Shown here in pieces: positions 35,312-51,642 of a stretch of 64,000 nucleotides of DNA; the stretch's first letter is position 1, and each line of letters opens with the position of its first letter. Source of the DNA: Anaerococcus sp. Marseille-Q7828 (GTDB lineage Bacteria; Bacillota; Clostridia; Tissierellales; Peptoniphilaceae); the NCBI RefSeq assembly GCF_949769285.1, contig NZ_OX458331.1:496001-560000 (forward strand), written 5' to 3'. The notes below the pieces were generated by a model. The model searched no databases. It was not told the origin of the DNA and was given only the letters and a program-made list of their open reading frames with translations. A program made the translations under genes and the position numbers.

Positions 35312-36907
35312 TTACATTTTCCCATATACTTTCATTCTCCCCTCATCCATATGTATTAATTCATCAAATCTTGATAGATTCTCTTCTGATAGATCGTGGG
35401 TGATTTCAATTATTATCTTATCTTGTAAGTTTAATAGATAATCTTTTATTATATTGCTTGTTTTGTGGTCAATACTAGCAAAGGGCTCATCTAAAAGTAT
35501 TATTGGTCTATCGGCTACTAGCATACGTACTATGCCTACAATTTGCTTTTCTCCTCCACTTAGCTTATTTATATCCTCATAATTTATGATTTTGTTTCTC
35601 ATTTTTTCGTTTAGGACCATCAAGAAATTGTTTACTAATTTCGTATCGGTCTCCATACTTTTGAAAATACTAATGTTGTTTATAAAATCTGTTCTAAATA
35701 GATATTCATATTGTTTGAGAGAGAATATGTATTCGTCCAAATCGTCTATAGGATTCCCATCTATATAAATTTCCCCAGTTTCTGCTTCTAGGCTTCCATC
35801 AATGAGTTTTAATAGGCTAGATTTGCCAGATCCGCTATGTCCAAGAATAGCATATCTTTTATTTTTCTCAAATACATAGTTTACCTTATCTAAGGAAAAA
35901 TTATCAAATGTGATAGATAAATTCTCTAAGCTTAGCTTATCGACTTTCTTATCTTCCCATTTGTCTTTTTCTTCTATTAGGTCTCCATTAATGAAATCCA
36001 TAGTTTCATCAACTAATTCTTGGGTAGAATTTATAAGATTTATGCAACTTAGAATATCATTAATAGGATCTAGGAAACTAGTAGTGTATCCAAAAGCTGC
36101 TATTCCAACTCCAACAGTGATTTTCCCTTGAGCCAGAAGTATAGCTACTATAACAAAGGTATTAAATTCTACTAGAAATATACCAAAAGCTCCTGCTAAA
36201 TCTGAAATAGTTTTAAACTTACCAAACTTATATCTTTTGTCCTCACTATCAGTAAGATATGACCTATGCTCGTTATTAATATTCTTAAAAGTCACTCTAT
36301 TGATTCGTGATTTACCAGATAATAAGTCAAGAACCTTATCAAAGTATCTCTTTATGCTAGCTATTTGCTCTCCCCTTAAAAATGACAATCTCTTTTTGAA
36401 GATTTTAGGGATAAATACAATTAAGACAGAAGATAATAGGACAACTATACTTATCCTATAATCTACAAAAACAAGCAAGGTTGTTAAAAATACTATAATA
36501 TTTAGTATAGATTTATAGAGATCTATGTAGGCACTTAGATAATCCTCGTCTATTGCTTCCACATTCTCAGTAAAAATCACTAAGTAGTCAGCAACTTTTC
36601 TTTTGTTAAATTCGTGGATGTCTAAAGAAGAAATATGCTTAAACAAATCATCTTTAATCTTTACAAAAAACAACTTAGAAACTTTCCACTCGTATAACCT
36701 AGATATGTATTGGAAGAATAAATTTAGAAGAATCAATAATACATAAATGCCAATAAGTTTAAAAACAAGACTTAAACCTTCTTCTAAAATATAATCAAAT
36801 AAATATTTGTTAACCAATGGAAATATTGCCACAGTAATTGAGTACAATAAAGTAAATATGATTTGTATTATAATTGGAATTTTCAATTTTCGTATATATT
36901 TTTTCAT
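35312..36907 (-). CDS. ABC exporter with fused permease and ATPase, copy A
   Basis: 531 residues. Six N-terminal membrane helices (PIIIQIIFTLLYSITVAIFP onward) are followed by a nucleotide-binding domain with Walker A LGHSGSGKSSLLKL, Q-loop LKQYEYLF, signature KLSGGEKQIVGIVRML, Walker B IILLDEPFASID and H-loop ITHDLSE. It differs by only about a dozen residues from the exporter at 45537-47117 inside the RiPP locus; only the last eight or so residues are unrelated. It is a half-size exporter that should form a homodimer. No peptide genes lie beside this copy. Confidence 0.87.
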   Translation of the reverse strand: MKKYIRKLKIPIIIQIIFTLLYSITVAIFPLVNKYLFDYILEEGLSLVFKLIGIYVLLILLNLFFQYISRLYEWKVSKLFFVKIKDDLFKHISSLDIHEFNKRKVADYLVIFTENVEAIDEDYLSAYIDLYKSILNIIVFLTTLLVFVDYRISIVVLLSSVLIVFIPKIFKKRLSFLRGEQIASIKRYFDKVLDLLSGKSRINRVTFKNINNEHRSYLTDSEDKRYKFGKFKTISDLAGAFGIFLVEFNTFVIVAILLAQGKITVGVGIAAFGYTTSFLDPINDILSCINLINSTQELVDETMDFINGDLIEEKDKWEDKKVDKLSLENLSITFDNFSLDKVNYVFEKNKRYAILGHSGSGKSSLLKLIDGSLEAETGEIYIDGNPIDDLDEYIFSLKQYEYLFRTDFINNISIFKSMETDTKLVNNFLMVLNEKMRNKIINYEDINKLSGGEKQIVGIVRMLVADRPIILLDEPFASIDHKTSNIIKDYLLNLQDKIIIEITHDLSEENLSRFDELIHMDEGRMKVYGKM

Positions 36908-36929: not shown

Positions 36930-37110
36930 ATTTAACTTTATTTTAATCGGTAAATAAAAAACATGCAAACAATTATAATTGCATTCATATTTTTTATACT
37001 ATATGTCTTTCATAATTTTAATTTGTAATTCTAGATATACATACAGGTGTTTATCTGATACAAGCATAATTTACTAGTTGACAATACATTCCTACTACTT
37101 TTTAACAATT
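36930..37110. repeat. Repeat of the exporter 3' flank (also at 45385-45536)
   Basis: About 150-180 bases here closely match 45385-45536. Shared stretches include AACATGCAAACAAT, TAATTTGTAATTCTAGATAT, ACATACAGGTG and CTAGTTGACAATACA. At 45 kb this sequence directly follows the exporter stop. Here it is upstream of copy A and next to a fragment of a third exporter copy, so it records tandem duplication of an exporter-plus-flank unit. Confidence 0.75.
36955..36990 (-). terminator. Terminator inside the repeated flank (copy near 37 kb)
   Basis: Minus strand TGCAATTATAATTGTTTGCA hairpin followed by T-rich DNA; counterpart of the better-formed hairpin at 45407-45439. It probably ended transcription of the now-decayed third exporter copy. 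Confidence 0.5.
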
Positions 37111-37147
37111 TCCTCTTAAAAAAGATAATCTCTTTTTAAATATTTTA
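37097..37147 (-). pseudogene. Fossil third exporter copy, 3' piece
   Basis: After the repeated flank, the bases just past 37100 resemble the exporter 3' end. From about 37118, AAAGATAATCTCTTTTTAAA matches an interior exporter segment (46590-46612), so most of the 3' half has been deleted. The match stops near 37147 at AATATTTTA and resumes at 41166, across a 4-kb insertion. Confidence 0.65.
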
Positions 37148-37849
37148 ACTATAGATACTTATAAAGATGGCAAAAAAATCATAGATATCAGAGACTTAAA
37201 AAAGCTTAAAAAAAGCAAAGTCCCTATAAGCATAAAGACCAGCACTAAAGTGCGTAATCTTCTCAGATACTGCGACCGCTACTCAGATGGTAAAGCTATC
37301 AGTATATACCGAGGACATCAGCCTTATGATGATACAGAGCTACGCACCGTAAAAGGCTGGAGGAAGATATATAGAAAGCCTATATCTGACGATTATATCT
37401 TTTATATGCGTGCAAACAGACAAGGCGGAGAGTGGTGTGATTACTGCTTTTATGAGGATACTGTAGAGCTATCAGAAGACGAAAAAGAGCTTATAAGAGC
37501 AGAAAGACGAGAGGAAAGAAGACTACGAGAAGCTCGTAAAAGGCGAGAAGAGTATCAGTGCAAAAGGGCAGAGGGCTACTGGAAAACAGCTTGGCAATGG
37601 CTTTCTGAGGATCAAAGAAAAGTCGAAGATGACTCTTATCCTGAGGAAAGATATAACTTGCTCTATGATGAAGCTGCAAACAGCTTTGAGCAAGCAAAAA
37701 AGCCTTTCTATTACTATAGTGAGTATGACACGGTAGAGGTAAGCGAAGAAGAGTATGAAGAGCTTAAAAACCAATATATATCAAGGTTTGGCGGCTGGGA
37801 AAAGATAGACCTAGAGCACACAGAATACAATGGAAAAAAATTGTATTAA
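37148..37849 (+). pseudogene. 5'-truncated hypothetical gene at the edge of the inserted segment
   Basis: An open frame runs from the junction with the fossil exporter to 37849. It has no ATG start and no ribosome-binding site; GTG at 37250 is the first possible start but lies inside conserved-looking sequence (GKKIIDIRDLKKLKKSKVP precedes it). The product is rich in Tyr, Glu and Arg, with KYWxxW-like and charged helical stretches and a C-terminal EVSEEEYEELKNQYISR. I do not recognise it; codon choice (more GC and AGA/CGA) differs from neighbours and suggests a phage or plasmid source. Confidence 0.55.
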
Positions 37850-41165: not shown

Positions 41166-41290
41166 TAGGGTATAATGCAATTAATACAGAAGATAAAAGG
41201 ACAACTATGCTTATCCTATAATCTACAAAAACTAGTAAAGTTGTTAAATATACTATAATATTAAGGATAGATTTATTTATATAGTGCCTA
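41166..41290 (-). pseudogene. Fossil third exporter copy, interior piece
   Basis: Continues the match broken at 37147. Shared stretches with 46615-46745 include AGGACAACTATGCTTATCCT, ATAATCTACAAAAACTAG and ATAATATTAAGGATAGATTT. It ends a few bases before the stop of the next ABC gene. With the 3' piece it forms a deleted and interrupted relic of the duplicated exporter. Confidence 0.72.
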
Positions 41291-41292
41291 GA

Positions 41293-43023
41293 TTAGTTAA
41301 CTTTTGAATAATTATCATAATAATTAGTGTACAAGTCTCTATATATTTCTGAATTTTTCATCGCATCTTTATGAGAAGTAAATATCTCTAATTTACCATC
41401 ATTTATAAACCATATCTCATCTGCTTGATGTACTGAAGATAGTCTGTGGGAAACTAAAAAAACTATATTATTATCCCTAAGCTTTGTAACCGCTTTATAG
41501 ATATCCCTTTCTTTTTCCAAGTCTATTGACGCCGTTGGCTCATCCAAAATTATTATATTGCGTTTGTTATAGATAGCTCTTAATATAGCAACTTGCTGAC
41601 CTTGACCTCCTGATAATTCTACATAATCTTCACTAAGTTCTTTTCCTATCCTTTTTCCCAAATCAAAATTAAGTTGCCAGTTTAATAAATCAAGTAGCCA
41701 AGGCATTTTATTATCATAATCTTTTCCTACTTCTGTTCTTATATTTTCAAGACTAGTAAAGTCTTTTATTAGCTTAAAATCTTGGAAAACAGGACTTATA
41801 TGTGAGTAATTTATTCTATCTGTATCATAGCCATTATAAGAGATGTAACCTTGATTTGGCGTATACATTCCTGCTATAAGTTTTACTAAAGTAGATTTCC
41901 CACAACCATTTTCACCTATTATTACTATTAATTTATTTTCATTTACATCAAAATTTATGTCTTCTAAGACATTCTTATGATTATATGCAAATTTTAAGTC
42001 CTTTGAAGTTAAATGGATTTCCTTAGTGTTTATGATTTCTAAAGGTGATTCACTAGGGTCTGGGAGAGACAAAAACTCTATAATAGGCTTAGAAAATAGA
42101 GAATATCTCCAAAAATCAATCAATGATTCTGAAATATCTTTTATAGCATTTGTTATCTTAAATATTGCCATAATAAGTATTGCAAAATAATCTATATTAA
42201 ATTTTCCATTATAAAGCTCAACTACACCAGTAATTAAAACAAAAAAGTATATAAGGATATCAGTAAGATCTGATAGTGTATCCCTAATGCCCATTCTATT
42301 ATAGAAGTCAGTAAATATTTCTATAGTTTTGTCAATATAAATCTTGCTTGATTTAATAATATTAGTTTCCATAGCATTTGCTTTAATATCAATAAATCTA
42401 TCATCTTCAAGTGGTATATATTGGTAGTACCATATCCAGTTGTTGATAGGTGCAAGCTTATTATAAAATTCTTCATCTTTCTTTGAATATAATAACCTTA
42501 TGTAAAAGTTTATAAAAACCAATATCAATACTACAAATCCTGTCCAAAAAGATATGCTAGAAATTATAAATGAAGTTACTATGATAATACTGATACCTTG
42601 GATAATATTTACCAATGCCTCTATCATATTCTCTAAGGCATACTGATTACGCAAGGAATAATTAGCTCTCTGTTGAAGGTCATAAAAATCCTTTGATTCG
42701 GTTACTTTATAAGATATCGACATTGATTTATCGATTAATTCTTCCTCAACTTGATATATAAATTCATTTCCAATCTTTACAGATTGTGTACTAATATAAG
42801 CATTTATTAACTTCAACAAGCACAAAAATATAAAAACATAAATAGCTTTATCAAGTGAATCTTTATTAGCTATAAAATTGGTAATAAGTTCTATAAATTT
42901 GAAAAATCCATAAGCCTCAATAGAACTTATTACAACATTTAATATCAAAATTCCTATAAATTTCTTATTAGTCTTACTAGCTCTCCTTATGAGCGATAAT
43001 GAAGTTTTTATACTATCAATCAT
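41293..43023 (-). CDS. ABC exporter subunit 2 of a likely heterodimer
   Basis: 576 residues. Six membrane helices are followed by an ATPase domain: Walker A IGENGCGKSTLVKLI, signature LSGGQGQQVAILRAI, Walker B IIILDEPTASID, H-loop LVSHRLSS. Its ATG overlaps the preceding ABC gene by eight bases, so the two are probably made together and pair. This class exports peptides or lipids. Part of the XRE-small protein-ABC-ABC unit at 41.3-45.2 kb, separate in sequence from the duplicated exporter. Confidence 0.86.
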   Translation of the reverse strand: MIDSIKTSLSLIRRASKTNKKFIGILILNVVISSIEAYGFFKFIELITNFIANKDSLDKAIYVFIFLCLLKLINAYISTQSVKIGNEFIYQVEEELIDKSMSISYKVTESKDFYDLQQRANYSLRNQYALENMIEALVNIIQGISIIIVTSFIISSISFWTGFVVLILVFINFYIRLLYSKKDEEFYNKLAPINNWIWYYQYIPLEDDRFIDIKANAMETNIIKSSKIYIDKTIEIFTDFYNRMGIRDTLSDLTDILIYFFVLITGVVELYNGKFNIDYFAILIMAIFKITNAIKDISESLIDFWRYSLFSKPIIEFLSLPDPSESPLEIINTKEIHLTSKDLKFAYNHKNVLEDINFDVNENKLIVIIGENGCGKSTLVKLIAGMYTPNQGYISYNGYDTDRINYSHISPVFQDFKLIKDFTSLENIRTEVGKDYDNKMPWLLDLLNWQLNFDLGKRIGKELSEDYVELSGGQGQQVAILRAIYNKRNIIILDEPTASIDLEKERDIYKAVTKLRDNNIVFLVSHRLSSVHQADEIWFINDGKLEIFTSHKDAMKNSEIYRDLYTNYYDNYSKVN

Positions 43024-44746
43024 CTATTGCTCCTTTCATTAGCTCTTCAGATATATCTAGTAAGTGCTTAAAATAAGGAGAATTTTCTTTAAGATAATGA
43101 TAAGTCCCAGAATTTTCTACCTTTTTATCTCTAATAACTATTATTCTATCTACTACATTAGTTATAGATATCCTATGTGATATTATTATATATCCTCTAT
43201 CTTCAAATTCAGAAAGAATATTATAGAATTTAATCTCTTTGTCAATGTCTAAGTTAGATGTAGGTTCGTCAAATATTAACATCCTTTTATTAGATAAAAG
43301 TGCTCTTAGTGTTACAATTAGTTGCTCTTGTCCACCTGAAGGTATGAAAGCATCATCAAAAAACTCGTTACCTATATGATCTTCAAGTTCAAGGTATCTA
43401 AATTTCGACTTATTTTCAATCTTATTTTTATGTATGTAAGATTTTATAAACTCTATATCTCTATTTTGCTTATTATTGAAAAAAAGATTATCCGCTAGGC
43501 TACCAGGAAATAATTTAGATGTTTGGAATGTTGACGCGAAATAATTAATCCTATCATCAGCTGATATATTTTTGCCATCAAATAATATTTGCCCGCTAGT
43601 TGGCTCAAGCAATCCTATTAATAACTTTATAAATGTTGTTTTACCAGCACCATTTTCTCCAATAATAGCTATTTTCTCATCAGAAGTGAAGCTCACACTT
43701 AAATTTTCTAAAGCAAAATCACTAGATCCTGGATACTTGTAAGATACATCAATAAAATCAACCTCAAACTTATTTGTTATATCTAATTCATTGAAAACTT
43801 GAAGATTTTTATTTAAAACTTGATCATACCTTTCAAAAAGATTAGAGTTTTTCTTAATAGATGAATAGCTCTCTAATACTTTCATAATAGACTCACTAAA
43901 TAGGTAATACATATTTAATATAATTACGAAATCACTAACTAAAATATTTTTATGTCTTAATAATAGTATTGCTAGAATAGATATATCATTTAAAATTAGA
44001 AGCAAACTAATATATATCTTAACTTTAAGACTTAGTTTTGATTTTCTATCAAAAATATCAAATAAGTCATCAATTACATTCCTATATCTTTTAAGAATCA
44101 TATCTTTAAGGTGAAAAACCCTAATATCTTTGCTATATTTACTATTAGTAGTAAGTGAGTGGTAGTAATCTTTTCTATTTTCTATATCTCCTAAATCTTC
44201 ATCTTCAAGTAAATCAAAGCTATTGATCTTATCTTTAATTGGGAAAACTAAAATCGCTATAATTATACTTATAAGAAGAATTAATATAGAGTATCTTCCT
44301 ATAAAAAAGCCACTAAATACTGTTAATATAAAAAAAGGAACTATCTCAATAAATCCATTTATTGCTTCTTGATATCCTTCTATATCAGAAGAAAAAAAAC
44401 TTAGCGTCCTTTGGTAGCTACTTACAAATTTTTCGTCTTCAAAAGACCTATACCTATTATTTATAGCTTTCGAATTTATATCAAAAAGGTAGTTCATTCT
44501 AGACTCAAAAGAAAGAAAGGAAACCTTACTACTAAGCATATTATAAGCTACTTTACTTATGCACATTATAAGTCCAATAATTATAATAATCCTAATTAGC
44601 TGGTTCAAATCAAAACCAGCCTCAATTTGTTTCATTACATATCCCAATACATAAGTATCTAGAAAAAAACTAATAATATTAAAAATCCAAAAAACTACAA
44701 TATAGAAAAAATTACATCTAAAAAATTTATTAATAAGATTTTTCAT
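43016..44746 (-). CDS. ABC exporter subunit 1 of a likely heterodimer
   Basis: 576 residues, with TM domain (FLDTYVLGYVMKQIEAGFDL and other helices) then Walker A IGENGAGKTTFIKLL, Walker B MLIFDEPTSNLD and H-loop IISHRIS. The signature is PSGGQEQLIVTLRALL, with Pro in place of Leu at its start, so one composite ATP site may be degenerate, as in many heterodimeric exporters. The ATG overlaps the 66-residue gene by four bases. Confidence 0.86.
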   Translation of the reverse strand: MKNLINKFFRCNFFYIVVFWIFNIISFFLDTYVLGYVMKQIEAGFDLNQLIRIIIIIGLIMCISKVAYNMLSSKVSFLSFESRMNYLFDINSKAINNRYRSFEDEKFVSSYQRTLSFFSSDIEGYQEAINGFIEIVPFFILTVFSGFFIGRYSILILLISIIIAILVFPIKDKINSFDLLEDEDLGDIENRKDYYHSLTTNSKYSKDIRVFHLKDMILKRYRNVIDDLFDIFDRKSKLSLKVKIYISLLLILNDISILAILLLRHKNILVSDFVIILNMYYLFSESIMKVLESYSSIKKNSNLFERYDQVLNKNLQVFNELDITNKFEVDFIDVSYKYPGSSDFALENLSVSFTSDEKIAIIGENGAGKTTFIKLLIGLLEPTSGQILFDGKNISADDRINYFASTFQTSKLFPGSLADNLFFNNKQNRDIEFIKSYIHKNKIENKSKFRYLELEDHIGNEFFDDAFIPSGGQEQLIVTLRALLSNKRMLIFDEPTSNLDIDKEIKFYNILSEFEDRGYIIISHRISITNVVDRIIVIRDKKVENSGTYHYLKENSPYFKHLLDISEELMKGAIDD

Positions 44747-44943
44747 TCTATTACCAGCTCATACTTTTCACAATATTCTAAGTCACTAAACTTACCCATA
44801 TCCGCCATGTACGATAGATTTTTAATACTAGAATAATGAATTTCTAGTATATATTTCTTATTTTCATAATGAACGAGAAAACCAGCTGTATTTTCAATAC
44901 CATCATCAATAAATTTGATAAACGAAGAATTATTATTTAGCAT
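44743..44943 (-). CDS. Small hypothetical protein (66 residues)
   Basis: A small soluble acidic protein that I do not recognise. It alternates beta-like and polar stretches (GFLVHYENKKYILEIHY, then FSDLEYCEKYELVIE) and has one Cys. It begins on the base after the XRE stop and overlaps the following ABC gene, so expression is coupled. It could be an adaptor or recognition protein for the exporter; its length would also allow an unusual precursor peptide, but it has no leader/core layout. Confidence 0.55.
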   Translation of the reverse strand: MLNNNSSFIKFIDDGIENTAGFLVHYENKKYILEIHYSSIKNLSYMADMGKFSDLEYCEKYELVIE

Positions 44944-45183
44944 TTATAATTTATAAGATGGTGAGTTTGGATAATCAAAGAATATTCTACTTATATCAAT
45001 TGAAAGTTCCCTACAAATAGGGATTAGTGTTGAAACATTGGGATCACACAGATTTTTTTCTATTTTTCTTATAGTTTCTACTGATACTAAAGATATGATT
45101 GCTAATTCTTCTCTAGAAATATTTTTCTCTTGACGTTCATATCTTATTCTTTTACCAATATAGGAAAAATCATAGTCATTCAT
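44944..45183 (-). CDS. XRE-family regulator of the ABC exporter unit
   Basis: 79 residues: an XRE helix-turn-helix (ISREELAIISLVSVETIRKI, then EKNLCDPNVSTLIPICREL) with a short tail. The ATG at 45183 has GAGGTGG before it; the upstream GTG does not. The fold resembles the N-terminal domain of the RNPP-type regulator at 49252-50148 but has no repeat domain. It heads the unit with the 66-residue protein and two ABC genes. Confidence 0.8.
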   Translation of the reverse strand: MNDYDFSYIGKRIRYERQEKNISREELAIISLVSVETIRKIEKNLCDPNVSTLIPICRELSIDISRIFFDYPNSPSYKL

Positions 45184-45223
45184 TTTCCACCTCACTTAAA
45201 CTATAAACTTAGCTTTTGTTTAT

Positions 45224-45252
45224 ATTATAGCATATGGTATCAGAATAATGAA
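45224..45252 (-). promoter_or_regulatory. Possible promoter of the XRE/ABC unit
   Basis: Minus strand TATAAT at 45224-45229 with only a poor -35 (TTCATT) at 17 bases. An activator may be needed. CATATG lies in the spacer. Confidence 0.4.
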
Positions 45253-45406
45253 AACCTTTTATTGATGGTTATTTTAAATACAGATATAAGAAAGGACTAT
45301 GTAAAAATTTTATTGTCTATGCTTACAATTTAATCTGTGTACCATTTTGATTTAGAATTATAAAGTCTGATATAATCTGAATTATTTAACTTTTTTTAAT
45401 CCGTAA

Positions 45407-45439
45407 ATAAAAAACATGCAAACAATAATAATTGCATGC
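45407..45439 (-). terminator. Terminator of the RiPP operon
   Basis: Minus strand CATGCAA (45432-45438) pairs with TTGCATG (45415-45421), followed by six T. It lies about 100 bases after the exporter stop and is repeated near 36955-36990. Confidence 0.8.
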
Positions 45440-45536
45440 ATATTTTTCATAATTTTAATTTGTAATTCTAGATATACATACAGGTGCTTATATGATACAA
45501 GTATAATTCGCTAGTTGACAATACACGCCCACTACT

Positions 45537-47117
45537 TTATAACAAATTCCCCTCATCCATTTGTATTAATTCATCAAATCTCGATAGGTTTTCTTCTGAT
45601 AAATCATGGGTGATTTCAATTATTATCTTATCTTGTAAGTTCAGAAGATAATCTTTTATTATCTTGCTTGTCTTGTAGTCGATGCTAGCAAATGGCTCAT
45701 CTAAAAGGATTATTGGTCTATCGGCTACTAGCATACGTATTATGCCTACAATTTGCTTTTCTCCTCCACTTAGCTTATTTATATCCTCATAGTTTATGAT
45801 TTTGTTTCTCATTTTTTCGTTTAGGACCATCAAGAAATTGTTTACTAATTTCGTATCGGTCTCCATACTTTTGAAAATACTAATGTTGTTTATAAAATCT
45901 GTTCTAAATAGATATTCATATTGTTTGAGTGAAAATATGTATTGGTCCAAATCATCTATAGGGTTACCATCTATATAAATTTGTCCAGTATCTTTTTCTA
46001 GACTTCCATCAATGAGTTTTAATAGGCTAGATTTTCCAGATCCGCTATGTCCGAGAATAGCATATCTTTTATTTTTCTCAAATACATAGTTTACATTATC
46101 TAAGGAAAAATTATCAAATGTGATAGATAAATTCTCTAAGCTTAGCTTATCGACTTTCTTATCTTCCCATTTATCTTTTTCTTCTATTAGGTCTCCATTA
46201 ATGAAATCCATAGTTTCATCAACTAATTCTTGGGTAGAATTTATAAGATTTATGCAACTTAAAATATCATTAATAGGATCTAGGAAACTAGTAGTGTATC
46301 CAAAAGCTGCTATTCCAACTCCAACAGTGATTTTCCCTTGAGCCAGAAGTATGGCTACTATAACAAAGGTATTAAATTCCACTAGAAATATACCAAAAGC
46401 TCCTGCTAAATCTGAAATAGTTTTAAACTTACCAAACTTATATCTTTTGTCCTCACTATCAGTAAGATATGACCTGTGCTCATTATTAATGTTCTTAAAA
46501 GTTACTTTATTGATTCGTGATTTACCAGATAATAAGTCAAGAACCTTGTCAAAGTATCTCTTTATGCTAGCTATTTGCTCTCCCCTTAAAAATGATAATC
46601 TCTTTTTGAATATTTTAGGGATAAATACAATTAAGACAGAAGATAATAGGACAACTATACTTATCCTATAATCCACAAAAACTAGCAAGGTTGTTAAAAA
46701 CACTATAATATTAAGGATAGATTTATAGAGATCTATGTAGGCACTGAGGTAATCCTCGTCTATTGCTTCCACATTCTCAGTAAAAATCACCAAGTAATCA
46801 GCAACTTTTCTTTTATTAAATTCGTGGATATCTAAAGAAGAAATATGCTTAAACAAATCATCTTTAATCTTTACAAAAAATAACTTAGAAACTTTCCACT
46901 CATATAGCCTAGATATATATTGAAAGAATAAATTTAGAAGAATCAATAATACATAAATGCCAATAAGTTTAAAAACAAGACTTAAACCTTCTTCTAAAAT
47001 ATAATCAAATAAATATTTGTTAACCAATGGAAATATTGCGACAGTAATTGAGTACAATAAAGTAAATATGATTTGTATTATAATGGGAACTTTTAATTTT
47101 CGTATATAATTTTTCAT
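45537..47117 (-). CDS. ABC exporter of the RiPP locus, copy B
   Basis: 526 residues with fused membrane and ATPase domains. Walker A is LGHSGSGKSSLLKL, signature KLSGGEKQIVGIIRML, Walker B IILLDEPFASID. It is nearly identical to copy A (35312-36907). It lies downstream of the precursor peptide gene (74-base gap) and before a shared terminator, so it probably exports the modified peptide. There is no N-terminal C39 peptidase domain, so leader removal must be done by another protein. Confidence 0.87.
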   Translation of the reverse strand: MKNYIRKLKVPIIIQIIFTLLYSITVAIFPLVNKYLFDYILEEGLSLVFKLIGIYVLLILLNLFFQYISRLYEWKVSKLFFVKIKDDLFKHISSLDIHEFNKRKVADYLVIFTENVEAIDEDYLSAYIDLYKSILNIIVFLTTLLVFVDYRISIVVLLSSVLIVFIPKIFKKRLSFLRGEQIASIKRYFDKVLDLLSGKSRINKVTFKNINNEHRSYLTDSEDKRYKFGKFKTISDLAGAFGIFLVEFNTFVIVAILLAQGKITVGVGIAAFGYTTSFLDPINDILSCINLINSTQELVDETMDFINGDLIEEKDKWEDKKVDKLSLENLSITFDNFSLDNVNYVFEKNKRYAILGHSGSGKSSLLKLIDGSLEKDTGQIYIDGNPIDDLDQYIFSLKQYEYLFRTDFINNISIFKSMETDTKLVNNFLMVLNEKMRNKIINYEDINKLSGGEKQIVGIIRMLVADRPIILLDEPFASIDYKTSKIIKDYLLNLQDKIIIEITHDLSEENLSRFDELIQMDEGNLL

Positions 47118-47191
47118 TATTTATTCTCCGGTAAGAATTATTTTTTTAATAAGGACTCTTTGTTAAAAGGGTCCTTATTAATAAAAATAAT

Positions 47192-47368
47192 CTATCCAAC
47201 TTTCTTTTCTTGATTAACAGATTTTATTTCCAGTGGATTATAATATGGTGTTGATGAGTTTTTTCCTCTACATTGTCCTCTACAAGCGGATATAACCAGT
47301 ATTTCACCTTTTTTAAGTACTGGAATCGATAGTTTTTGGACACCATTTTCTAATTTTTTATTATCCAT
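47192..47368 (-). CDS. Putative radical-SAM RiPP precursor peptide (58 residues)
   Basis: A small gene not covered by ordinary length cut-offs. It starts four bases after the maturase stop (GAGATAA overlaps as a weak ribosome-binding site). The N-terminal half is a charged leader (MDNKKLENGVQKLSIPVLKK), then a hydrophobic stretch GEILVISA and the core-like ACRGQCRGKNSSTPYYNP, ending with a charged tail. The C-x3-C pair with Arg/Gly/Ser/Thr neighbours is a plausible substrate for thioether (sacti/ranthipeptide) or C-C crosslinks by the adjacent SPASM enzyme. No signal peptide. Its position between maturase and exporter is the main support. Confidence 0.75.
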   Translation of the reverse strand: MDNKKLENGVQKLSIPVLKKGEILVISACRGQCRGKNSSTPYYNPLEIKSVNQEKKVG

Positions 47369-47372
47369 AAAT

Positions 47373-48383
47373 TTATCTCATTTCATAATATTTATTGTAA
47401 CGTGCTAAGGCAACTGATTTGCACATAGCAGAACAACCATAGATATTTCCTGTTTCTGATAAAACAGTTCCTGGACATCTTTCACATAAATTTTCTAATT
47501 TACAATCGTTACACTCATTATTTTTTGATTTCTTTTGATTTCTTACATATCTAAAATAATTTGAATTCCAAATATCTTGGATACTATTTTTATATATATC
47601 ACCAACTTCAAGGTAATATCCATTACAAGGATATACCTTTCCGTTACTTGATATAAATAAGCTATGTCTTAGTGTAGGGCACATATATTCATCAGTATTA
47701 TTTATAAACCTAAAATTAGCAGCTTTATCAATTTCCTCAATTATATGTATCAATTTATTTTCAGGAATGAAATATTGTAAAGGAGTTTCTTCGCCATTAG
47801 ATTTAGTAAATATTGATGGTGAAGTAGTAAATGAAAATCCCATATCATCACAATAATTTTTTACTTCCATAAAATCCTCATAATTGTATTTTAGTATAGG
47901 AGTTTTTATTTCTATTGGGATTTTGTATTTATTAAGATTATTCACACCATTCAGAGCTGCTTCAAGTGACCCTTTTACTTGAGTAATTCTATCATGCACT
48001 TTTGCATTCATAGAAAAAATAGTGAGTGAAAAATCAGTAATATAAAGCTCAGAAAGATCTTTAGCAATCTTTTCAGTAATTAAGGATGCATTGCTCAAAA
48101 TATTAACTCTAAAACAAAGATCTCTAGCGTACTTTACAATTTCCATAAAATCTTCTCTTTTAAAACATTCTCCACCTGTAAATACAATTTGGTGAACGCC
48201 CATTTGTCTAAGATTTAATAATATTTTCTTTATTATATCTATTGGAATTCCATACTCAGTATATGATGGAATATAGCAATGTTTACATCTCCAATTACAT
48301 AAAGAAGTTATTTCAATAGTGCAGCTAATTGGAATTTCATTTAGAAATGCATCATTAATAACTTTTTCATAATTAGCTTTCAT
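47373..48383 (-). CDS. Radical SAM/SPASM peptide maturase
   Basis: 336 residues. EITSLCNWRCKHCYIP holds the CxxxCxxC motif for the SAM-cleaving 4Fe-4S cluster, and IVFTGGECF is the GGE SAM-binding motif. The C-terminal SPASM region (CNGYYLEVGDI, ECNDCKLENLCERCPG, YGCSAMCKS) should hold auxiliary Fe-S clusters. Such enzymes install thioether or carbon crosslinks on ribosomal peptides. It overlaps the PqqD-like gene by 11 bases and precedes the precursor. It has no fused recognition domain, which the separate PqqD-like protein would supply. Confidence 0.9.
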   Translation of the reverse strand: MKANYEKVINDAFLNEIPISCTIEITSLCNWRCKHCYIPSYTEYGIPIDIIKKILLNLRQMGVHQIVFTGGECFKREDFMEIVKYARDLCFRVNILSNASLITEKIAKDLSELYITDFSLTIFSMNAKVHDRITQVKGSLEAALNGVNNLNKYKIPIEIKTPILKYNYEDFMEVKNYCDDMGFSFTTSPSIFTKSNGEETPLQYFIPENKLIHIIEEIDKAANFRFINNTDEYMCPTLRHSLFISSNGKVYPCNGYYLEVGDIYKNSIQDIWNSNYFRYVRNQKKSKNNECNDCKLENLCERCPGTVLSETGNIYGCSAMCKSVALARYNKYYEMR

Positions 48384-48666
48384 AAATGAGTTCCTCTTCT
48401 AATAACTTATTAATGAAATCATACACTAATTTAGTTATACTTATTGAAGTATCATTACAATATTTTGCATCAATACTAAGGATTATATCATTTATATTTT
48501 TCTCATCAGATATTCCGATCCATATGTCTACAGCAATACCCTCTATAAAGTACAATTCGTTTTTTCTTTCATCCACTATATAAATATAATTATTCATATA
48601 TTGCCAAGAAATATATCTCTGAATGTGATACTTTTTCAATATAATACTATTGGTCAGAGAAATCAT
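48373..48666 (-). CDS. PqqD-like RiPP recognition protein
   Basis: 97 residues with the PqqD pattern: NNYIYIVDERKNELYFIEG (strand-turn-strand), then AVDIWIGISDEKNINDII and a C-terminal helix KLVYDFINKLLEEELI. PqqD/RRE proteins bind leader peptides and hand them to the radical-SAM partner. AAAGGATATAATAA precedes the ATG. First gene of the maturation operon. Confidence 0.82.
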   Translation of the reverse strand: MISLTNSIILKKYHIQRYISWQYMNNYIYIVDERKNELYFIEGIAVDIWIGISDEKNINDIILSIDAKYCNDTSISITKLVYDFINKLLEEELIYES

Positions 48667-48957
48667 TTATTATATCCTTTCTCTTTCAGATTGTTTAATT
48701 AAATTTTTAGTCATTTGATTCTCATTAGTTTGGCTTTTATTTCTAAAAACTCTTTACTAGTTAGGGTTTCAAATAACATTTTGTTTTTACACAATTATTC
48801 GCACTTTATCATTAAATATCTTAGTTTACACTAGTCCATTTCGACTTAACTTAATAAAAAAAATTCTATACGATAACTGACAATTGCCCTGGAACTAGAA
48901 TATAGAGTCTATTGAAAGACCCTAGTTTAAAACCGTTTTAGGATTTATAATTAATAT
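48667..48957. other. Leader region of the RiPP operon
   Basis: About 290 AT-rich bases before the PqqD-like gene. Contains the AGAGTCT/AGACCCT repeat and two very short minus-strand frames: 48711-48779 (22 residues, no ribosome-binding site) and 48670-48714 (14 residues, ATGA-coupled to the first). They could be leader peptides, but neither shows RiPP or pheromone features. Confidence 0.45.
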
Positions 48958-49000
48958 CTACATAAATTGAATAATATGTAGTTCTAATTTATCTTGTCAA
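48958..49000 (-). promoter_or_regulatory. Promoter and palindromic operator of the RiPP operon
   Basis: Minus strand TTGACA (48995-49000), 18-base spacer, TATTAT (48971-48976). A palindrome with 7-base arms CTACATA (48958-48964) and TATGTAG (48975-48981), 10 bases apart, covers the -10 box. A second imperfect repeat, AGAGTCT-N6-AGACCCT, lies at 48904-48923. The leader to the first gene is about 300 bases and holds only tiny frames (22 and 14 codons). Confidence 0.6.
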
Positions 49001-49122
49001 ATGCAAGAATAATAGTTAGTATCAATTCCATATGTAAACACAGGTTTAGCAGTATCGCTATCGTCTTTGCTCATTGGGAAAATTATTGAAAATACTAACA
49101 ATAAACTTAATATTTTTTTCAT
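48997..49122 (-). CDS. Putative secreted signalling peptide (PapR-like, 41 residues)
   Basis: A short gene directly downstream of the RNPP-type regulator, on the same strand, with AAGGATGG before the ATG. Sec-type signal MKKILSLLLVFSIIFPMS, then a polar spacer KDDSDTAKP and C-terminus VFTYGIDTNYYSCI. Short exported pro-peptides of this build, encoded after their receptor, are the hallmark of PlcR-PapR and Rgg-SHP systems, where a C-terminal fragment is re-imported (often by Opp) and binds the regulator. An Opp system with two binding proteins is present in this window. The RiPP promoter's -35 overlaps its stop codon. Confidence 0.68.
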   Translation of the reverse strand: MKKILSLLLVFSIIFPMSKDDSDTAKPVFTYGIDTNYYSCI

Positions 49123-49148
49123 AATACCATCCTTAATATTAGCTTTTC

Positions 49149-49166
49149 AATTAATCATGATTAATT
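49149..49166. promoter_or_regulatory. Perfect palindrome before the signalling-peptide gene
   Basis: AATTAATCATGATTAATT, an 18-base perfect palindrome, 27 bases upstream of the peptide ATG. It is a good candidate operator for the adjacent regulator, comparable in position to PlcR boxes, though the sequence differs from that box. Confidence 0.5.
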
Positions 49167-49218
49167 TGTCCGTTTAATTAGATATCTTAATATAATTATA
49201 AATAATTTCTCCATAATA

Positions 49219-49241
49219 GAAAACCTGCACTTGTGCAGGTC
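49219..49241 (-). terminator. Hairpin after the RNPP-type regulator gene
   Basis: ACCTGCA-CTTG-TGCAGGT stem (49223-49240) followed on the minus strand by TTTTCTATTAT. It lies between the regulator and the signalling peptide, so the peptide probably has its own promoter. Confidence 0.7.
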
Positions 49242-49251
49242 TAAGCAGGTA

Positions 49252-50148
49252 TTATTCTTGTAAAATTTCATCAATACTTAAAATTAGAACTTTCTTTAAA
49301 TCATTTTTTAATAATAAATCACACAATTTTAGTGAGGAATCTAAATAAAATCTATAGTCAAGTTCTCCAATTTTATATTTAGATATTCCTATCATATAGT
49401 ATAGCAATGGGAAGCTATTATAATTACTTATTTTTGATCCTTCTTCTATCCCAACTTTGCACAAAAGTATGGTATTGGTATACTTTTTTTCAATATAGTA
49501 GTATCTAGCCAAATTATAACAAATCTTTGGAAATAGTTTTGATTCTGTAGGAGTGACTTCTTTTAAATGATTTAATATTTTAAACGCTTTTTCATTATCT
49601 TCTATATCTATATAATATTCAGATAGAGATTGAAGAATTCTTATTTCTAGTTCATTATAATTTGAGCTCTCACTTAATAAATCTTCTGATTTTATAGTCA
49701 AGCTCAGTGCATCTTCTAAATATTTTTTATATAAATTTAAATTTTTATCTTTAGATCTTGACAAACAAGCTTGGAAAAACAATAGATACTGGTCTAATTT
49801 GATTTTATAGCTAGTAGGTAATGTATCTCTGTAATAAGTAAGTTGACTAATGTATTCAAAAATATTATCTAAATTATTTTGATCAAGTTCTTGGCTTGCT
49901 TTCTCTAAAATGTTCTGTAGATCTTGCCAAGATGACCCTTTTTTTGTTTTAAGTAGCAATTCCCACTCTATACCTAAAACTTTAAAGATTGGGACAATTG
50001 AATCTAATCTAGGTAAGTTGTAGCCATTCTCAAGCCTCCTGATTGTGTCAATAGAAACATTGGACTTTTCTGCGAGTTCAGCTTGTGAAATCCCCATTTC
50101 TTTTCTAATTCTTTTTACTTCACTTCCTATGTAATCATATTCTGCCAT
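49252..50148 (-). CDS. RNPP-type peptide-responsive transcription regulator
   Basis: 298 residues. The XRE helix-turn-helix at residues 8-63 (MGISQAELAEKSNVSIDTIR, RLENGYNLPRLDSIVPIFK) is followed by about 220 residues of helical repeats of the TPR type (LEDALSLTIKSEDLL, LQSLSEYYIDIEDNEKAFKI, ICYNLARYYYIEKKYTNTIL, YYMIGISKYKIGELDY). This two-part layout is that of PlcR, PrgX, NprR and Rgg, which bind imported peptides in the repeat domain. The adjacent signal-peptide gene and palindromes support the assignment. It follows the sigma-factor terminator, so its promoter must lie in a very short gap. Confidence 0.83.
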   Translation of the reverse strand: MAEYDYIGSEVKRIRKEMGISQAELAEKSNVSIDTIRRLENGYNLPRLDSIVPIFKVLGIEWELLLKTKKGSSWQDLQNILEKASQELDQNNLDNIFEYISQLTYYRDTLPTSYKIKLDQYLLFFQACLSRSKDKNLNLYKKYLEDALSLTIKSEDLLSESSNYNELEIRILQSLSEYYIDIEDNEKAFKILNHLKEVTPTESKLFPKICYNLARYYYIEKKYTNTILLCKVGIEEGSKISNYNSFPLLYYMIGISKYKIGELDYRFYLDSSLKLCDLLLKNDLKKVLILSIDEILQE

Positions 50149-50179
50149 TTGATTTTCTCTTTCTACTACTTGTTTGTAT

Positions 50180-50217
50180 TAAAAACCACACCATAGCTTA
50201 ATTGCTTGGTGTGGTTT
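50180..50217 (-). terminator. Terminator of the gyrA-rsbVW-sigma unit
   Basis: Minus strand AAACCACACCA (50207-50217) pairs with TGGTGTGGTTT (50183-50193), followed by T. It directly follows the sigma-factor stop. Confidence 0.88.
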
Positions 50218-50218
50218 C

Positions 50219-51001
50219 TTAGATATTTTCCATTTTTTCTAGTTCCATGGTGAATTTTTGTAGGATCTTTTTTTCTATTCGACTTACTGTCATCTGGGAG
50301 ATGTCTAGGGTGTTGGCTATGTCTATTTGGGTTCTGCCCTCGTAGTATCTTAGTTCTAGAATCTCTTTTTCCAAATCGTTTAGCCTTGCTGTTGATTTTT
50401 CTATAAGATCTGATAGTTCTATGGAGTCGAAGTTCCTGTCTTCTTCTCCTATCATATCAGCCAAGTCTATGGAGTTTTCTCCTTTTTGGACTTGGTATTT
50501 CATATCAAGACTTTGTGGAGCGTAAACTTTGCTTGCTTCCATGGTTTCTAGTATGGTTTCTTCGTCTTCGCCCAAGTAGTCTGCTATGTCTTTTACTGTT
50601 GGGGTTCTTTGCAGTTCTTGGGGTAGGACTTTTTTGGCGTTATTTATTTTTTTGTAGAGGTTTTGGATTCTTCTTGGGACTCTGATGACCCAACCCTTGT
50701 CTCTAAAGTAGCGTTTGAGCTCACCCATTATTGTCGGTGTTGCAAATGAAGAAAATTCGTAGCCCTTACTTGGGTCAAATCTTTCTACTGCAAAGATTAG
50801 TCCAAGGCTTGCTACTTGGTAGAGGTCTTCTTTTTCGATGCCCTTTCCTACGTATTTGTTGGATAGGATATCTACTATATACATATGCTCTTCTATTAGT
50901 TCATCGCGAAGTTTTATATCACGAGTTTGGTAATACTCCTCAAATTTCTTCTTGATTTGCTCTTTGTATTCTTGATCAGTTAGATCTTTTTGCTTTGTCA
51001 T
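50219..51001 (-). CDS. SigB/SigF-type RNA polymerase sigma factor
   Basis: 260 residues of the sigma-70 group 3 class. Region 2 (EEHMYIVDILSNKYVGKG, DLYQVASLGLIFAVERFDPS, FSSFATPTIMGELKRYFRDK) is followed by region 3 (RVPRRIQNLYKKINNAKKVL) and region 4 with its HTH (GRTQIDIANTLDISQMTVSR). It is the output of an RsbV/RsbW partner switch encoded just upstream (stop and start share one base). Whether it directs general stress or another regulon cannot be told; no sporulation genes are present here. Confidence 0.88.
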   Translation of the reverse strand: MTKQKDLTDQEYKEQIKKKFEEYYQTRDIKLRDELIEEHMYIVDILSNKYVGKGIEKEDLYQVASLGLIFAVERFDPSKGYEFSSFATPTIMGELKRYFRDKGWVIRVPRRIQNLYKKINNAKKVLPQELQRTPTVKDIADYLGEDEETILETMEASKVYAPQSLDMKYQVQKGENSIDLADMIGEEDRNFDSIELSDLIEKSTARLNDLEKEILELRYYEGRTQIDIANTLDISQMTVSRIEKKILQKFTMELEKMENI

Positions 51002-51336
51002 TAGCTTGCCCTTTTTATGATTTTAATTTCTCCGCTTGTGATTTCAACTTCATCTGCAAGTTCTTGTAAAATTAAATCACGCATTTTTAGTGCACGTTCG
51101 TCTAGGCTCTTATCCTTGCCTATAACTTTGATTTGAAGGTTTTTATCTTCTGGCAAAAATTCTATTTTTATGTCCTCATCGCTAAGCTTGTAGTTGATTG
51201 CCTCGCTTACTACAACTCTAAGGTCTTCAACTTCTTCTATATTAAATCCTAGATCACTTGCAAGGGAAGCGGTAAATAATCTTATGGATTTTAGATAGAT
51301 TTTGCGAGCTGGGATTGTTATGGTAATTTTATCCAT
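51001..51336 (-). CDS. rsbW: RsbW-like anti-sigma factor (short, degenerate ATPase)
   Basis: 111 residues against 140-160 for typical RsbW. The beginning matches the GHKL histidine-kinase-like fold (ARKIYLKSIRLFTASLASDL, then VEDLRVVVSEAINYKLS, where the N-box Asn is retained). The G1 box (DxGxG) and following lid that bind ATP are not visible. It may therefore hold the sigma factor without phosphorylating RsbV, or do so differently. Located between rsbV (four bases) and the sigma gene. Confidence 0.72.
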   Translation of the reverse strand: MDKITITIPARKIYLKSIRLFTASLASDLGFNIEEVEDLRVVVSEAINYKLSDEDIKIEFLPEDKNLQIKVIGKDKSLDERALKMRDLILQELADEVEITSGEIKIIKRAS

Positions 51337-51339
51337 GAT

Positions 51340-51642
51340 TTACTCCATATCAAATAGATCGGATAGATCAGTAATTTTGAATAATTTTTTGATATTTTCT
51401 TTTGTATTTATTATTTTTACTGATTTGCCATTTTCTTTTTGTTTATTGTAGATAAGCATAAACATACCAAGGCCTGTTGAGTCTAGGTAGTCTAGGTCTT
51501 GTAGGTCAAATACTAGGTCTTTGTTGGCATCTATTTTTTCTTCTATGAATTCTTTGAAGTCTTCTTCTGAATAGACATCTAGGTCACCAACAAGTTTTAC
51601 TGTCTGAATATCATCTTCAATTTTTATTTCTTTATCAAACAT
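51340..51642 (-). CDS. rsbV: RsbV-like anti-anti-sigma factor
   Basis: A 100-residue STAS domain. VKLVGDLDVYSEEDFKEFIE and LVFDLQDLDYLDSTGLGMFM contain the conserved Asp-Ser of the phosphorylation loop (S in LDSTGLG). It would release the sigma factor by binding RsbW when unphosphorylated. It starts nine bases after the gyrA stop, so it appears to be cotranscribed with gyrase, an unusual position for such a module. Confidence 0.86.
   Translation of the reverse strand: MFDKEIKIEDDIQTVKLVGDLDVYSEEDFKEFIEEKIDANKDLVFDLQDLDYLDSTGLGMFMLIYNKQKENGKSVKIINTKENIKKLFKITDLSDLFDME

Follow-up and report, generated by a model that had tools for sequence, protein, structure and literature searches.

Background

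In PMC9765709, RRNPPA regulator genes are placed within Bacilli in all but one case, with PlcR assigned to Bacillales and multi-copy propeptides reported for PlcR systems, and the active end of PapR is given as ADLPFEF in the abstract of PMC6568020. Such regulators have also been linked to biosynthetic genes: the RRNPP_detector survey (PMC10075063) counts 196 RRNPP-linked biosynthetic clusters, of which Peptoniphilaceae and Tissierellaceae have one each, and the review PMC13361665 ties 16 streptococcal subfamilies of radical S-adenosylmethionine (SAM) ribosomally synthesized and post-translationally modified peptides (RaS-RiPPs) to Rgg, giving the function of the SSH and KIS subfamilies as not characterised. 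A thuricin-like radical SAM cluster is mentioned for Anaerococcus prevotii in PMC4289311.

Here we describe a RiPP locus with a PlcR-like regulator in Anaerococcus sp. Marseille-Q7828. It lies in a stretch of 64,000 nt (positions 496,001 to 560,000 of contig NZ_OX458331.1), referred to as the window, in whose numbering coordinates are given. An earlier note made from the letters alone (the original prediction) had proposed here a quorum-sensing-controlled radical-SAM RiPP system. The Peptoniphilaceae cluster counted in PMC10075063 may be this or a related locus, and no published description of it was found in the literature on Anaerococcus RRNPP, PISIY, radical SAM RiPPs and quorum sensing.

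The RiPP genes and their relatives

On the minus strand, between 45537 and 50148, six co-oriented open reading frames (ORFs), all open, encode in this order a regulator, a 41-aa secreted-looking peptide, a PqqD-like protein, a radical SAM/SPASM maturase, a 58-aa precursor and an ATP-binding cassette (ABC) exporter (Table 1). The PqqD-like and radical SAM ORFs overlap by 11 nt and the precursor ORF follows the latter after 4 nt; the six-gene set, its single orientation, its order and its overlaps were thus as originally predicted, and the RiPP recognition element (RRE), maturase, precursor and exporter lie next to a regulator of RNPP type and a short peptide that looks secreted, as a radical-SAM RiPP system of the proposed kind should. 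The locus is real and intact, a radical-SAM RiPP cluster associated with an RRNPP regulator of PlcR type, and belongs to a kind of system already known. The biosynthetic reading is strong, the product itself being a predicted one, and the reading of the regulator and the 41-aa peptide as a putative pheromone pair is good; that this switch governs the RRE-maturase-precursor-exporter operon, which would make it a quorum-controlled RiPP cluster, we consider somewhat probable. RiPP machinery known behind Rgg/SHP switches is here joined to a different RNPP switch, and a similar kind of product would thus be quorum-controlled under two regulator types.

The maturase matches both Pfam domains and retains the CxxxCxxC motif together with those SPASM cysteines that are invariant across 12 aligned sequences including its own; an enzyme with intact cluster cysteines thus adjoins a small precursor ORF. 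Its closest solved structures by profile are SkfB (E 9.8e-29) and SuiB (5v1q, E 2e-12). The PqqD-like protein scores 22.8 bits against a Pfam cut-off of 23.4, and its predicted structure, with a mean predicted local distance difference test value (pLDDT) of 88.4, finds its best solved matches in TbiB1 chains bound to leader peptide (E 6.8e-6, TM-score 0.76 by query). Because of this fold match we identify it as a stand-alone RRE, in agreement with the earlier claim. The exporter was likewise correctly named, having ABC_tran and ABC_membrane domains, with no peptidase domain among its Pfam matches. The precursor shares only three invariant residues (P16, C33 and G35) with eight SSH-like precursors. 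Plasmids gave it one chance-level match (E 3), and among the loci compared it matched only the genome's own copy, whole genus genomes not having been searched with it. The likeliest chemistry would be a thioether around the two core cysteines; with these cysteines and SkfB as best solved profile match, assignment as a sactipeptide is plausible only. The new two-cysteine core is on offer for radical SAM chemistry.

A genome-contig scan for the maturase returned 13 loci. Ten are near, at 37-42% identity (six from Streptococcus, one from Lactococcus and three from metagenome bins), and the other three are distant, at 24-25%; a Macrococcoides bohemicum plasmid (L038) carries a further maturase at 39%. 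Even within Streptococcus the enzyme is rare, being present at 1e-55 in 4 of the 147 genomes sampled. Gene order, read in seven of the ten near loci (L004, L005, L009-L013) and in L038, comprises an RRE, a first radical SAM gene, the precursor, a second radical SAM gene and an ABC gene; two radical SAM genes are present in L004, L005, L009, L010, L011, L013 and L038, the first is apparently split into two ORFs in L012, and the RRE of L009 precedes the second radical SAM gene. Three of the precursors were scanned and scored 86-95 bits on the SSH model NF050043 (cut-off 45).

With these SSH-type clusters of streptococci and the M. bohemicum plasmid, and with similar ones in Lactococcus nasutitermitis and the three metagenome bins, the window locus shares a co-oriented RRE, maturase, small precursor and exporter, and an RNPP-type regulator upstream, as found in the three cases scanned. 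It differs in having one radical SAM gene where most have two (an arrangement taken from the relatives seen and not from a published definition), in its precursor, which is not of the KSAxCSGxSSH kind and has no SSH match at E up to 1, and in its PlcR-like regulator, whereas the three scanned streptococcal and lactococcal regulators (L005, L010, L011) carry Rgg_C (E 6e-54, 3e-51 and 9e-31). These differences bear out the predicted distinctness from streptococcal examples. In a tree of 17 maturases, drawn open and with long branches for the two far rows, the window branch falls outside both SSH paralogue groups (support 88/91). The single radical SAM gene, this branch and the missing SSH precursor match place the locus, on these sequence grounds, outside SSH, as a neighbouring lineage that has a precursor type of its own. 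The original prediction had named a lack of conservation in relatives, of either the two small ORFs or their arrangement, as grounds for refutation, and the outcome is mixed: on the biosynthetic side the RRE-radical SAM-precursor-ABC order is kept in the relatives, mostly with a second radical SAM gene before the ABC gene.

The regulator and its peptide

A profile of 19 regulator homologues matched PlcR over its full length (E 1.3e-17), as did a profile of the six closest homologues (E 6.7e-7), and among the natural chains listed (the best 60 of 133 for the larger profile) PlcR was the one matched full length. The regulator, with its helix-turn-helix (HTH) and tetratricopeptide repeat (TPR) parts, is thus homologous to PlcR by profile, and a secreted-looking propeptide gene, recognised by a crude hydrophobicity rule, lies directly downstream, as in PlcR/PapR systems. 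Those are reported from Bacillales in PMC9765709, whereas the window's genus is placed in Tissierellia and has other peptide motifs and RiPP cargo. Rgg_C is absent from the regulator's Pfam matches; the predicted RNPP identity therefore stands, with a likeness to PlcR and not to Rgg. Homologues occur at 95% identity in genome G016 and at 74% in G013, and plasmids yielded no relatives.

Searches of 31 genus genomes, scoring at most nine candidates per genome so that homologues may be missed, gave 24 regulator matches; two are pieces of one broken G007 gene and were left out. Directly behind 14 of the 22 intact homologues there is a short secreted-looking ORF in sense, and behind one there is such an ORF in antisense. 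The rule is crude (ATG, ribosome-binding-site (RBS)-like site, 25-150 aa, a hydrophobic stretch preceded by a basic residue, and a distance of at most 500 nt, without SignalP). With random strand and the ORF held to 110 aa, 239 of 4,000 random 500-nt pieces of the window contained such an ORF (about 6%). Outside the genus, the pairing was seen in sense for one and in antisense for three of 17 homologues, an eighteenth having given no match; it is therefore a feature of the genus and not of the whole regulator family. The recurrence across the genus is stronger support for reading the peptide as a signal than the window by itself provides.

Putative pheromone and cargo families in the genus

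Three types of product recur behind the genus regulators. Peptides with PISIY repeats (one to four copies, mostly EPISIY) are found at five loci (L076, L077, L078, L079, L080) and likely form a multi-copy pheromone family. A PISIY-repeat query of the 31 genomes gave four strong matches, including its own source, all four adjoining a regulator match, and two further weak ones (E 0.12 and 0.16). Peptides with an ID-x-FYV-like tail, loose in two, lie 83-84 nt behind the regulator at eight loci (L131-L136, L061, L065), one of which (G000:C1, L131) belongs to the same genome as the window and is its second pair, at genome position 1105191. At four loci (L082, L083, L085, L068) a lactococcin-972-like protein follows, with PF09683 in the one scanned and the rest assigned by eye.

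In a tree of the 22 regulators, the PISIY (5), ID-x-FYV (8) and lactococcin-972-like (4) types form one clade each. The labels require five changes in total, the minimum possible, and none of 200 shuffles was equally low, although labels were assigned after the ORFs had been seen and near-copies favour such a score. Regulators before ABC genes without a peptide are not one group. The window regulator groups with those of G016 and G013, and this group is the sister of the PISIY clade (93/92, narrowly missing the program's star). The window peptide contains ...AKPVFTYG..., which resembles P-I-S-I-Y, a weak likeness noticed post hoc, and the active stretch is possibly around KPVFTY.

As for cargo, a circular (uberolysin-like) bacteriocin gene lies behind the IPISIYSL peptide of L077 (L077:8719-8943, PF09221, E 5e-10), a large papain/lectin-like secreted protein lies behind that of L079 by Pfam and behind those of L076, L078 and L080 by eye, and a 405-422-aa secreted protein lies behind the ID-x-FYV peptides at five of the six loci read, the stretch at L131 being too short. 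Since the genus regulators mostly precede secreted products, bacteriocins and exporters, a RiPP cassette fits the pattern. The predicted inducing peptides are on offer for silent bacteriocin-like loci of anaerobes in the genus.

Candidate control signals and the postulated circuit

An 18-bp perfect palindrome lies between the regulator and peptide genes. It is one of two in the 64 kb with arms of at least 9, the 16-nt core occurs at one exact place in the genome, and when the 129-nt gap was shuffled 20,000 times by mononucleotides, a palindrome as good arose in 57 of the shuffles. It was not among the best palindromes of the five PISIY loci. Of the promoter palindromes originally claimed, only this one stood out. 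Promoter-like sites numbered 49 against a shuffle mean of 41.8 (standard deviation 6.3); because this is no clear excess, the promoter evidence is weak.

In the circuit that we postulate, the 41-aa peptide would be exported, trimmed, re-imported and bound by the TPR domain of the regulator, acting as a cell-density switch, and the peptide-bound regulator would activate the genes around it by way of the palindrome and of promoters close by. The operon under its control would yield the 58-aa precursor, the PqqD-like protein would hold its leader, the radical SAM/SPASM enzyme would cross-link the core around two cysteines, and the ABC protein would export the modified peptide, which may have an antimicrobial role. 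We infer that the pheromone would switch the RiPP genes on.

Distribution and history of the site

The maturase occurs in one of the 31 genus genomes and, at 1e-30, in eight of 249 genomes of the order, its own included; the best of the others (G131) is a gene with an in-frame stop. The exporter was found in three of the 31 at 1e-60, with at most 47 candidates scored per genome so that homologues may be missed, and G016 retains a copy (97%). In G013 and G016 the regulator is present without the peptide and without RiPP genes: homology to the window stops at 49133 and picks up again at 44831, within orf66, the two share CTARTATTAA at the joint, and orf66 is left as a 29-aa stump. Because orf66 and xre83 are whole both in the window and in G026 (L081), the junction is best read, from this comparison, as a deletion that probably removed over half of orf66 and whatever preceded it, and it is reasonable to suppose that the lost piece held the peptide and the RiPP genes. 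Reading 44832-49132 instead as an insert between the regulator and the ABC pair was overturned by the whole orf66 and xre83 of G026.

Beside a sigma-factor-like operon (sigma-factor and anti-sigma names were given by eye), G000, G012, G013 and G016 carry differing cassettes, and G026 has about 9 kb of genes resembling those for sugar use first. A broader reading, which we regard as evenly balanced between true and false, is that PlcR-like regulator/pheromone pairs exist outside Bacilli, distributed over one genus, with clade-specific motifs (PISIY, ID-x-FYV-like, PVFTY) and cargo, that cassettes swap and decay at one site, and that the RiPP belongs to a new precursor subfamily. Its cargo would comprise the circular bacteriocin, the papain/lectin-like proteins, the 405-422-aa secreted protein and the window RiPP, and its variable site would be the one near the sigma-factor-like operon, with bacteriocin and exporter cassettes swapping and decaying there.

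Alternative explanations

Several observations weigh against a pheromone-governed RiPP operon. The window regulator alone, compared with solved structures, returned HTH proteins and designed binders and not PlcR, so that the PlcR assignment does not show from the single sequence; designed TPR proteins outscored PlcR in both profiles through repeated short matches; and the single-sequence model of the regulator (pLDDT 49.8) was too poor and was left out of the fold search. An obvious match of the maturase to a non-peptide pathway had been named as grounds for rejection; no curated NCBIfam cut-off was passed among the 25 of 65 families listed, the top score being for heme b synthase (123 bits, cut-off 500), ahead of the peptide maturase WgkB (107 bits, cut-off 650). 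Furthermore, the peptide gene is 330 nt from the RRE gene with a terminator-like hairpin inside, no second copy of the palindrome was found within 3 mismatches in the window and none before the RiPP operon, and to these are added the scarcity of the pairing outside the genus and the bare regulators of G013 and G016. The last two genomes, in which the regulator precedes ABC pairs and no RiPP genes, and the position of the palindrome before the peptide only, are what one would expect if the RiPP genes were real but under their own control and the regulator were an older resident of the variable site, serving ABC exporters or some other function. This is possible but doubtful, given that G013 and G016 look like deletion products, with the orf66 stump at the junction, and that each of the five regulators read in the sister clade has a peptide behind it, with secreted or bacteriocin-like products next. 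It seems unlikely that the 41-aa ORF encodes no pheromone, being a small ORF that is secreted or spurious, and that the switch senses another ligand. No homologue better than E 0.022 was found in the 31 genus genomes, and its coding status therefore rests on position and form; it lacks the exact PISIY motif, and 8 of the 22 homologous regulators manage without such an ORF. Against this, its place and form match 13 other peptides behind homologous regulators, where chance would give 6%. For the regulator-peptide side of the predicted small-ORF conservation, then, the genus preserves the order with different peptides, and does not preserve the 41-aa sequence.

The preferred reading, a PlcR-type switch before RiPP genes of their own precursor type, has also to be set against an origin from streptococci, in which the precursor would be of KIS type and the locus an ordinary member of that subfamily, acquired from them. 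The KIS RaS-RiPP model NF050044 is the only NCBIfam match of the precursor (E 3.4e-4, a weak similarity over 31 residues), and in a control with 14 known genomes chance matches to it arose in 6 when E up to 1 was allowed and in none when the limit was 0.01. The score of 20.1 bits is, however, far under the curated cut-off of 70, and none of 284 sampled Streptococcus-genus genomes passes that cut-off, so that we hold this origin to be improbable. The model was also searched in 21 relatives. As a lead, KIS was not confirmed in the 284 genomes, where one match of 52 bits (L106) had no adjoining maturase. It is more improbable still that the locus is a decayed remnant whose product is no longer made: the maturase is patchily distributed, and exporter copies are repeated with scars present, but all six frames are open and the catalytic cysteines are retained.

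Features of the locus and neighbouring observations

Table 1. Features of the RiPP locus and its surroundings (window coordinates)
Feature	Position	Strand	Basis
PlcR-like regulator, XRE HTH and TPR-type helices, 298 aa	49252..50148	-	Pfam HTH_3; family profile match to PlcR
Terminator-like hairpin behind regulator	49221..49242	-	Hairpin search; same-place hairpins in L076, L078, L079, L080
Candidate operator, 18-bp perfect palindrome AATTAATCATGATTAATT	49149..49166	.	Lies between regulator and peptide genes
Candidate pheromone precursor, 41-aa secreted-looking peptide	48997..49122	-	RBS-like site, hydrophobic N-terminus, position as 13 other genus pairs
Candidate RiPP operon promoter, best sigma-70-like match in region	48971..49000	-	11/12 match; overlaps peptide stop codon
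Terminator-like hairpin in 330-nt leader before RiPP genes	48903..48924	-	Hairpin search, folding
Stand-alone PqqD-like RRE, 97 aa	48373..48666	-	Near-cut-off Pfam score, predicted structure
Radical SAM/SPASM peptide maturase, 336 aa	47373..48383	-	Pfam Radical_SAM and SPASM, alignment, tree, profile
Precursor, 58 aa, putative core ...SACRGQCRGKNSSTPYYNP...	47192..47368	-	Position between maturase and exporter; weak KIS match; P, C, G common with SSH-like precursors
Stable hairpin in precursor-exporter gap	47147..47181	-	-23.9 kcal/mol for 81-nt stretch 47120-47200, z -5.46
ABC exporter, 526 aa	45537..47117	-	Pfam ABC_tran and ABC_membrane; 96-97% homologues in G016, G026
Second exporter copy, duplicate, possibly immunity; no maturase or precursor adjoining	35312..36907	-	Sequence identity

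An Rfam scan of 44500-51500 gave no match, and the viral contigs and phages searched contained no relatives. Among nine plasmid matches there was no Anaerococcus record. The plasmid locus L038 is a complete RaS-RiPP cluster of SSH type that lies outside streptococci, and no Rgg gene appears in its adjoining gene table, which is itself incomplete.

Within the window, the two exporter copies share 94% DNA identity over a 300-nt stretch and 97% as protein, and fragments of further copies at 36938-37158 and 41166-41276 appear as scars of an exporter array; copies and scars are consistent with kept immunity or export functions. A short XRE gene and a 66-aa ORF (44743-45195), with an ABC gene pair (41293-44746), form a separate unit that is also present in G026 (L081).

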